A DNA stretch of 64,000 nucleotides from assembly GCF_036373705.1 (NCBI RefSeq), contig NC_089857.1:32470284-32534283 (forward strand), written 5' to 3'. The notes under the pieces are model-generated. The model saw nothing but the letters and a program-made list of their open reading frames with translations, searched no databases and was not told the DNA's origin. This DNA comes from Amia ocellicauda. Taxonomy: Eukaryota > Chordata > Actinopteri > Amiiformes > Amiidae. The first letter of the stretch is position 1. Every line of letters begins with the position of its first letter. Below are positions 26,705 through 29,700 of the stretch, piece by piece. The position numbers were made by a program, and so were the translations under genes.

Positions 26705-29700
26705 ATGGAGACTGAAATTGAACAGCAGGAAGAAGAGACTACTTTCAGCAACACAGAGACAAACGGTAAGACCTATATTAATATCATTTTTAAAAATGTA
26801 ATGTGGCTTGCATTCAATCAAGACTGGCTGCTCCTCTCAGCTAATGTTTAGCATACGAAATTAAGCTCTTTTTCAAACAGTCTAGTTGTGTACAGTCTGA
26901 TCAGCACATTTTTCAGTATAATACATATTGCTTATTGCTGAGCTATATTTTAGTAAAAGCATTTCTGAATTGTGTAAACCCGCAAATTAAGCAGTAGCCT
27001 ATTTGTTTTCTGGCACAAACTAAAAATAAATGTTTTATAGCAGTTAAAACTCTATACCTTTTCTATTATATAAAGATGATTTTCTAATTATATTGATATA
27101 GATATATAAAAAAAATTCCAGACACTGGTTTGTTGATTAAGCTTATAATGTATGTATAAGAACTAGTAATTATTTTATTTTTTAAATTGTATTCCTATAC
27201 ATTTTTTTTTTTTAAATGTTACATGAAAATGGGAAATGGGAAAAAGATGAAATGGACCTGGCTTCTGTAAATAGACAACTGTCAGCTTTTGTCCTATATG
27301 TGAAAAGATGGCTTGTGAAAATGGTAGCAAGGAGACAGGGTCTGTGGTTACTATGGCAATGTCACAAGCGGTACGGCAAGTTCACACTGCTGCTAGAGAC
27401 AATGCTTGCTAATTAAATTCAGCTCTTTATTTTTTCTGAATTTTCAATTTATACTGGCCGTAATGGTAATTGAACTAACTGGATAAATTCAAGCATTTCC
27501 AGTCCTTCCAATTTTGCAAATGAGCTTTTCAAAAGACATTGTAAATTAGAATGGATCAGATGAAGGGGGGTTATTTGGCATACAATAGACATGCAATTAA
27601 ATTTTTGCATGCTTGAATAACCCTTTTTTTAATCTTTTCTGATGTAAATGCCACCCCTTTATTTGCTGTTTCAGGTGTAAGAACAGCTGATAACATGAAA
27701 GGCGTGTAATTAAAATGGGGAAGTCAAATATTTAAAGTATGCTCAAAATCAGCTTAATCATGAGATGCGCACTGGGTATTTTTATTCCATGTCATTGTTA
27801 TCGGCAAGACCATAGCAAAGGTAGTTTCGAACAAATATGATGTCAACATTTATCCTGTAGAGTACAATCCAGTGGCCTTGGGGTTTGTTCCTTATTTTGT
27901 CTTCAAGATTAATTTGTTTAAGCTAACAGATGGGCTAGTTCTGTAAATATTAACAATTTCAGATTTGTCTATAAAATCTGTGCTCTTTGCCTTTGTGTTT
28001 CCTTAGGAAAGCGCCCAGCTGAGGACATGGAGGAAGAACAGGTCTTTAAGAGGTCTCGTAATACTGATGAAATGGTGGAACTGCGTGTCCTGCTTCAAAG
28101 CAAAGTAAGTTTCGAAGCTGAGTAGTTCACATCTGTTAGCTTTGTCACAATTGAAAGGATATTCTGAAACCTTGTTTAAACCCCACTTTCTTTTATTTAA
28201 AGAATGCAGGAGCTGTGATTGGGAAGGGTGGAAAAAACATTAAAGCTCTCCGTACAGACGTGAGTATTTATTAAGAATTAAGAACCCGCTGGATTTTTTT
28301 TTTCTTTTTTGTGTGTTTTTTGGATGTGAAGACCTGTAGTATCATGAGTAGAAGAAAAACATCAGTGGGGGGTTGGGGGCGGGGGGGTAAATTAGCAAGC
28401 TGTCTGTTCCCAGTTGAGTGCAGACCAGAAAAGAAAAAACAGGCTTTCACTGATCCTCCCGAATGGCGCTTTTCTTTTTTGTTTTTTGTTTTTTAGTTTT
28501 TTTTTTTTAGTTATTCAGCAGTTCCAAGTACTAACAGAATTCCATAAAATTGCACTCCAGATTAATTAAAATCTTAATTAGTAACACTCATAACACTGAA
28601 ATCCCTTAAAATACATCTTCTCTAATTAGGCTAATCAGTCATTTTTAAAAAACCTATGCGTGATTAGAATAACCACGTAATTTTATCTTTCTTTTATAAA
28701 CATTAGTCTTCAAGAGCATATGTTAAGAGTTGCATGCTTGTAAAATACATTGGGTCGTTAAGAGTTAAATGTATTTCAAGACTGTACAAAAACATTTTCT
28801 GAGGGTGAATCGATCTGGAAGGTCAGATGCTCGAGTGATGCTTCTATAGGTTGGCTCATGTGAAAAGACATCATTTTCAGAAGTACTGTTCACAAAACCA
28901 TTAACTGGGGAGTGTACAACCTCCATTTTACATGTTTAAAGAAAGTGGTCTTCGGCGAGTTTCATTTTGCACTAATAAAGCCAACACACCCCTTAAACAA
29001 TTGTCTATACCCTTGAGCGGACCTATAGTCTGTGCAGACTGTCTTATTTAAATTCTAGTTCCAAAATGGTAGCCCATCATTCCATTTAAATGTCTTAACG
29101 CTGTTCAGTGTGTAACAGCAAAGCAGTCAAGTGTTCTTGTTCATTCTTCACAGCCTGAGTCTCTTATAGAGAATATCATAGTGATGAGTATAGTTTGTAT
29201 TCAATTAAAATTTATTCCTTTTCCCCCTCTTCCCTCTCCTTTTTTATTTTTTTTATTTTTGGCCACCTATCTCCGTTGCCCATGTACTGGATCGACATGC
29301 CCCTGCGTTGCCCATCATGATGTTGGCCCATCCGCCCCTGAACGCCCATCTGACACCCTGGTTGGCCATGCCCATAAATGTGCTCATTCCCAAACGGGCA
29401 CCTTACTTGACAACTTCTGATTGAATGCCCTTGCCCAATGCCAACATCCACGAACGCCAATGACCAATCCAGTACAATGCCAGTGTATCAGTCCCAGACA
29501 GCAGTGGCCCCGAGCGGTATGTCCCAACAGTTTATGCCTCACTGCCTGATTAGAAAGAGAAAAATGTATTTTATAACCTGCCTTTGTTTTTGTTTTTTTA
29601 AATAGTATCCCCTTTTTTAAAGCGGTGTACTGTTTTTATTTTTTTCTGTCTTATTTCCCCATTAAGTCTTTTAATTTTCCTTTTTTTGTCACTGGAGTTT

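Follow-up and report, generated by a model that had tools for sequence, protein, structure and literature searches.

Why does an intron of HNRNPK close with 277 nucleotides that lack a single AG, and why does this stretch precede an exon of just 44 nt, whose omission breaks the reading frame? The question arises in a 64,000-nt stretch of the Amia ocellicauda genome (the 64-kb window, to which all plain coordinates refer). For this locus, the original prediction, made from the letters of the DNA, proposed a distant or selectable branch point, combined with autoregulation of hnRNP K by splicing-coupled decay. In the following, we describe the exon, the AG-free zone and the C-rich tract within it, compare them with related loci in the same genome and with known systems, and weigh the explanations that they allow. 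We put the probability of the whole explanation, in which hnRNP K would regulate itself through skipping of the 44-nt exon and NMD, at about 0.5.

The HNRNPK locus and its 44-nt exon

The window contains HNRNPK, RMI1, a queuosine-salvage gene and a kinesin gene, which we take to be KIF27, with Pfam matches to RMI1, Q_salvage, the kinesin motor and KH. The naming of the gene as HNRNPK proved correct: it has Pfam KH matches, and of the 14 matches of a protein search, six are strong (84–97% identity) and all lie inside this gene. The remaining eight fall on other contigs, at 32–55% identity. KH matches were also found in two long open frames, at G000:C5:13493086-13494066 (402 aa) and G000:C27:22442925-22443884 (381 aa), which may represent large exons of the NOVA type or PCBP-like genes that lack introns. 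Furthermore, the window carries remains of DDE-type transposases (Pfam DDE_3) on its minus strand, at 12120–12524, 46196–46663 and 52765–53166, the last of these matches being under the curated cut-off.

The HNRNPK exon chain runs on the plus strand through 26705–26765, 28007–28104, 28203–28259, 29473–29516, 30623–30695, 31023–31136, 31530–31658 and 31865–32172, and when joined, these exons (26705–32172) form an open reading frame. Across 30695–31023, the coding sequence passes from TLEE straight into YQHYKG; human HNRNPK has a longer stretch between these two points, which is absent from the exon chain here. By eye, we noticed a possible extra exon at 32701 (plus strand), an exon-like stretch, open in one frame, that starts behind an AG between two HNRNPK exons. 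A mir-7 precursor (36567–36657, plus strand; Rfam RF00053, 89.5 bits) lies 3′ of the KH3 exon, in agreement with the known arrangement in which HNRNPK hosts mir-7.

The exon at 28203–28259 (57 nt, plus strand) ends with ...KALRTD and is followed by an intron of 1213 nt (28260–29472), which closes with the AG-free zone. Next comes the 44-nt exon in KH1 (29473–29516, plus strand), which ends with the CG of an arginine codon and has GTATGT as its donor. Translation of the exon chain bore out that skipping this exon breaks the frame within KH1: the shift sets in after ...KALRTD, a TAA follows in the shifted frame at 31034–31036 (plus strand), 100 nt before the exon end at 31136, and the skipped product matches just positions 2–28 of the 66-position KH_1 profile of Pfam. 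An mRNA with a stop farther than 50–55 nt before a junction is an NMD substrate. The exon thus combines a length that is not a multiple of three with a stop beyond this distance, as expected of the PTB exon 11 type; by this rule, the skipped mRNA is a predicted NMD substrate, and skipping of the 44-nt exon should lead to decay. If the following 73-nt exon (30623–30695, plus strand) is skipped as well, the frame is kept across the joined exons.

Together, the two small exons (44 + 73 nt) amount to 117 nt, the length of the single, undivided and frame-preserving exon that is found at each of four PCBP loci in the same genome. The position and phase of the acceptor are homologous, and KH1 of HNRNPK and that of PCBP2 align without gaps; the difference is that in HNRNPK a further intron interrupts the arginine codon; this intron was either gained by HNRNPK or lost by the PCBPs. 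The homologous PCBP acceptors are ordinary, with AG-free zones of 26, 44, 32 and 35 nt, with 41–59% T at positions −4 to −40 and with no or one copy of the word GCCCA in 278 nt. All four PCBPs combine such acceptors with the 117-nt exon; HNRNPK thus has both the frame-breaking exon and the AG-free zone, and these four paralogues have neither.

The AG-free zone and its displaced pyrimidine tract

A count confirmed that AG is absent from the 277 bases between the AG at 29192–29193 and the acceptor AG at 29471–29472. On neither strand of the 64-kb window does any other AG-free run match the length of this AG-exclusion zone (29194–29470, plus strand); the second in length, a run of 257 nt on the minus strand (16336–16592), overlaps tandem AT-rich repeats. 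The odds of less than 1e-7 that had been given for the zone were overstated, since they assumed equal base use, whereas the zone consists of 33% C, 32% T, 20% A and 14% G. When its own letters were shuffled, AG was missing in a fraction of 6e-5 of 50,000 trials. The shortage of AG beyond composition is real: 8.1 AG are expected and none is observed, and GA occurs 10 times.

Comparisons within the genome point in the same direction. Among 276 overlapping 208-nt stretches of similar A and G content, taken from both strands of the window, the mean number of AG is 10.4 and the minimum three. In a sample of 18 stretches of 10 kb from the same genome (180 kb, both strands), none of the 22,604 gaps between AGs reaches 200 nt, the maximum being 186. 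The 12 other HNRNPK acceptors or acceptor-like exon starts, among them the start at 32701, which is not a proven exon and has 31 AG-free nt, show 29–80 AG-free nt. In the kinesin gene, 10 of 11 anchors, which are unproven as exon starts, have an AG just upstream, with 1–86 AG-free nt.

Could the zone nevertheless be a repeat or a compositional accident in front of an exon that is spliced in the ordinary manner? Its C-rich part carries short internal repeats, and according to excerpts of PMC1431707, one-half to four-fifths of the zones of at least 100 nt are not attributed to distant branch points. However, neither the permutation value of ~6e-5 nor the lack of comparable gaps in the genome sample nor the normal acceptors of the PCBPs would be expected in this case. 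Likewise, a DNA search of the own genome (988 Mb, common words skipped) returned the tract itself as the sole candidate, and no tandem repeat was found in the zone beyond a 21-nt T-rich piece. A dispersed or tandem repeat origin is thus unsupported by these searches, and we consider an accident or relic quite improbable. In a cross-species comparison, an exon-based DNA pattern had no match in either the genome_contigs or the viral_contigs collection. A protein-coding tract was considered and rejected: open frames of 115 aa (plus strand) and 91 aa (minus strand) overlap it, and a plus strand without AG cannot form TAG stops.

The original prediction had also placed the strong pyrimidine tract about 210 nt from the exon, and we find it there, in the 5′ part of the zone. 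It is a U/C-rich stretch at 29215–29262 (plus strand), in which 44 of 48 bases are pyrimidines and which ends 210 nt upstream of the exon. The acceptor of the 44-nt exon itself is without a local pyrimidine tract, T making up 11% of positions −4 to −40, compared to 41–65% at the 12 other HNRNPK acceptors or acceptor-like starts. Gooding et al. (2006) recognize a distant branch point by an AG-exclusion zone of well over 100–150 nt together with its pyrimidine tract; here, the zone spans 277 nt and the tract is that at 29215–29262. A further mark in their scheme is a high-scoring branch site beside this tract.

Where within or beside the zone the branch point would lie is less evident from the branch-site words. 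On the 5′ side of the U-rich tract (29179–29209, plus strand), all candidates are weak, namely TAGTGAT (A at 29184, −289, just 5′ of the AG-free zone), TATTCAA (A at 29203, −270) and AATTAAA (A at 29208, −265), so that no high-scoring branch site was found to adjoin this tract. By a branch-site weight matrix, the best of them reaches 3.0 bits, as against 5.1–5.8 bits for the best-scoring words at −53 to −120 (29348–29421, plus strand). The latter lie inside the C-rich tract and comprise ATCTGAC (A at 29353, −120), ACTTGAC (A at 29410, −63) and TTCTGAT (A at 29420, −53).

These words are the main argument for an alternative in which the C-rich tract is a substitute pyrimidine tract or an activator, the branch point lies at −120, −63 or −53, and hnRNP K or the PCBPs favour productive splicing. 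PCBPs activate splicing through C-rich tracts, as this alternative would have it. Yet no strong pyrimidine tract lies behind the three words, the following 20 nt being just 60–65% pyrimidine, and the depletion of AG reaches farther 5′ than they need. For the stretch of 157 nt on the 5′ side of the −53 candidate, the shuffle P is 0.0009, and for the corresponding 90 nt at the −120 candidate it is 0.033 (30,000 shuffles each); proximal branch points therefore leave part of the zone unexplained. Moreover, PTB exon 11 offers a precedent for a high-scoring word that is inert, at −51, while the functional site is at −351 (excerpts of PMC1431707). An activating role of this kind seems doubtful to us.

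A distant branch point is suggested, too, by a comparison with the PTBP genes, of which three loci were found in the same genome and told apart by similarity and gene structure. At the PTBP1-like locus (L044, minus strand; G000:C28), a short exon, 34 nt long when the acceptor is placed at the first AG of an AGAG, is preceded by an AG-free zone of 459 nt, with a U-rich tract and TACTGAC at −428; it is the apparent orthologue of PTB exon 11. In excerpts of PMC1431707, the AG-free zone measures 381 nt in human PTB and 590 nt in Fugu, and mutation of the human UACUGAC at −351 abolished inclusion of exon 11. The homologous exon of a second PTBP paralogue has just 75 AG-free nt, which shows that a long zone is not required in such genes.

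Given the lack of a local pyrimidine tract, the AG depletion 5′ of the proximal words and the match to the PTBP1-like locus, the distant part of the proposed ‘distant or selectable’ branch point is well supported, whereas the words that adjoin the U-rich tract are weak. On this sequence evidence, we grade it as very probable that over 45 nt separate the branch point from the acceptor, and for its position we lean towards the 5′ side of the U-rich tract.

The C-rich tract and the proposed feedback

The remaining 208 nt of the zone (29263–29470, plus strand) are rich in C. The eleven runs of at least three C that had been noted in 29266–29470 were recovered by our count, and the tract contains six copies of GCCCA, at 29278, 29310, 29326, 29344, 29370 and 29433 (plus strand). 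Dinucleotide shuffles yield a mean of 0.83 copies, with one in 20,000 reaching six, and GCCCA does not exceed three copies per 208 nt in either the rest of the window or the genome sample. TGCCC is as frequent in the tract as GCCCA, and 13% of the shuffles hold some five-letter word at six copies, which marks the tract as repetitive. The upstream part of the intron has a single GCCCA, at 29072; in the intron downstream of the exon, the word is scattered, and a second C-rich cluster (29840–29890, plus strand) may serve as a partner site.

GCCCA is the consensus that was obtained for human HNRNPK in vitro, by ENCODE Bind-n-Seq (excerpts of PMC11269977 and PMC12333503). The earlier notion that the C runs are the ligand class of hnRNP K's own KH domains is thereby sharpened, the repeated word being the in-vitro motif of the encoded protein, and clustered, as in PTB exon 11, beside the exon. 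It is weakened in that the C-rich tract contains neither UCCCC, the word found for HNRNPK by eCLIP only, i.e. in vivo (excerpts of PMC7410833), nor CACGC, the other motif from Bind-n-Seq. Caution is also due over GCCCA itself, as it was recovered in a re-analysis only when the model was started from GCCCA (PMC11269977), and as the effect of hnRNP K on a TARDBP minigene persisted after deletion of the GCCCA sites (PMC12333503). From its motifs, we consider it likely that hnRNP K or PCBPs bind the tract.

Alternatively, the C-rich DNA, which shares its gene with mir-7, could represent an RNA-structure or DNA-level element, for instance a structured switch or a transcriptional element. The tract folds no better than its shuffles, however (z 0.32; equalled or surpassed by 60 of 100 shuffles), Rfam at gathering scores finds mir-7 alone in the 64-kb window, and the specific depletion of AG on the sense strand, the one transcribed, is a sign of splicing. 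We regard such an element as extremely unlikely.

We propose instead that the 44-nt KH1 exon is an essential exon whose 3′ splice site has a distant architecture. The U-rich tract at 29215–29262 would be engaged by U2AF and U2, along with a branch point close to the 5′ side of this tract, some 260–290 nt from the acceptor, and the spliceosome would run along the AG-free RNA up to the first AG, at 29471. The intervening 208 nt would form an array of hnRNP K/PCBP sites, made up of GCCCA and CCC runs. When abundant, hnRNP K would coat this array, perhaps jointly with the downstream C-rich cluster, and use of the acceptor would fall; the exon would then be skipped, KH1 broken and the mRNA degraded owing to the stop at 31034, in a negative feedback. 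The combination of AG-free zone, displaced pyrimidine tract, motif array, and frame shift with a stop makes autoregulation of HNRNPK by this exon plausible, if unproven.

The first two of these features would equally be accounted for by a distant branch point without autoregulation, as the AG-free zone and the displaced pyrimidine tract need the branch-point argument alone. The exon would then be weak or slow, and the array would serve PCBP1/2, other proteins or constitutive inclusion. In excerpts of PMC7410833, HNRNPK and PCBP1/2 are indeed associated in ChIP and eCLIP peaks. What this explanation does not anticipate is that the most repeated five-letter words include the in-vitro motif of hnRNP K, and this in its own gene and upstream of a frame-breaking exon. 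We judge it unlikely, though by no means negligible.

Among known systems, PTB exon 11 resembles the proposed one most closely in its parts. In both genes, each of which encodes an RNA-binding splicing regulator, a short frame-shifting exon (34 nt in PTB, 44 nt in HNRNPK) lies far downstream of a U-rich tract, its skipping is predicted to lead to NMD, and the AG-free zone is long (381 nt in human PTB as given in excerpts of PMC1431707, 459 nt at the PTBP1-like locus and 277 nt in HNRNPK here). By analogy, the architecture may work in the same way, which would make the HNRNPK exon a putative member of this class. By contrast, the HNRNPK zone is C-rich with GCCCA and lacks, at its 5′ end, a good branch-site word comparable to the TACTGAC of the PTBP1-like locus, and regulation is proven for PTB while it is proposed for HNRNPK. 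In CELF2 (CUGBP2) exon 6, motif clusters of an RNA-binding protein likewise lie upstream of an exon of its own gene, but they flank the branch region within 100 nt (excerpts of PMC2715136), whereas those of HNRNPK are spread over 208 nt between the pyrimidine tract and the acceptor. Finally, fubl-1 and fubl-3 of C. elegans also concern KH-domain proteins and a frame-breaking essential exon whose skipping yields an NMD substrate; excerpts of PMC13247117 describe their feedback as experimentally shown, in distinction to the sequence-derived case of HNRNPK.

The main text of a survey of autoregulatory events does not name HNRNPK (PMC6547761). Among the matches listed for open-licence PubMed Central, we found no report of HNRNPK autoregulation via the 44-nt exon, nor of an ultraconserved HNRNPK intron; the human 44-nt exon may already be contained in the list of exons with AG-free zones behind PMC1431707.

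Human variants near the exon

Loss-of-function variants of HNRNPK lead to Au-Kline syndrome, and four variants listed for it in excerpts of PMC9001983 lie at or beside the 44-nt exon: c.214-35A>G, c.257G>A, c.257+5G>A and c.258-3C>T. Both c.214-35A>G and c.257G>A are classed there as loss of function, and the former, which falls in the intron with the AG-free zone, counts in favour of the explanation proposed above. The table of the same paper credits c.214-35A>G to Murdock et al. 2021, whose deep-intronic HNRNPK variant, its base unnamed, is described in excerpts of PMC9664736 as leading to intron retention and Au-Kline syndrome. The 78 nt between c.214-35A>G and c.257G>A fit a 44-nt exon, so that, by position, c.214 would be its first base.

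Judged by distance and without alignment, the place of human c.214-35A is occupied here by the AA at −36/−35 (29437–29438, plus strand). An A>G exchange at −35 would therefore create an AG inside the zone; if used, this AG would add 34 nt to the exon and shift the frame. We infer that the human base at −36 is an A and that c.214-35A>G acts via a new AG, but the reported ‘intron retention’ could also be full retention, which needs no new AG.

The effect listed for c.257+5G>A, p.Ile87Tyrfs (excerpts of PMC9001983), stands, by its notation, for translation that continues into the intron behind the 44-nt exon, as opposed to loss of that exon; this counts in favour of a distant branch point without autoregulation. 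Read-through of the donor here, from CG into GTATGT, would yield Arg-Tyr.

A more far-reaching version of the autoregulatory reading can be built on these points. The hnRNP K sites occupy the interval from the pyrimidine tract to the acceptor, which would imply that the protein acts after branch-point recognition. In this version, the extra intron that splits the 117-nt KH1 exon gave rise to a homeostatic switch, hnRNP K acts at the second catalytic step and not against U2AF and U2, and c.214-35A>G is pathogenic by planting an AG. As a whole, we offer it tentatively and consider it rather unlikely.

If autoregulation through the 44-nt exon is true, a feedback switch at this position would help explain how HNRNPK holds its level. 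Diagnosticians would then have reason to screen the ~280 nt upstream of the exon for new AGs, and the region would be an antisense oligonucleotide target for altering the level of hnRNP K. The exons with distant branch points that had been studied by the time of PMC1431707 were, according to its excerpts, few and all regulated by PTB. An example governed by a poly(C)-binding protein would thus make the distant-branch-point architecture a more general platform.
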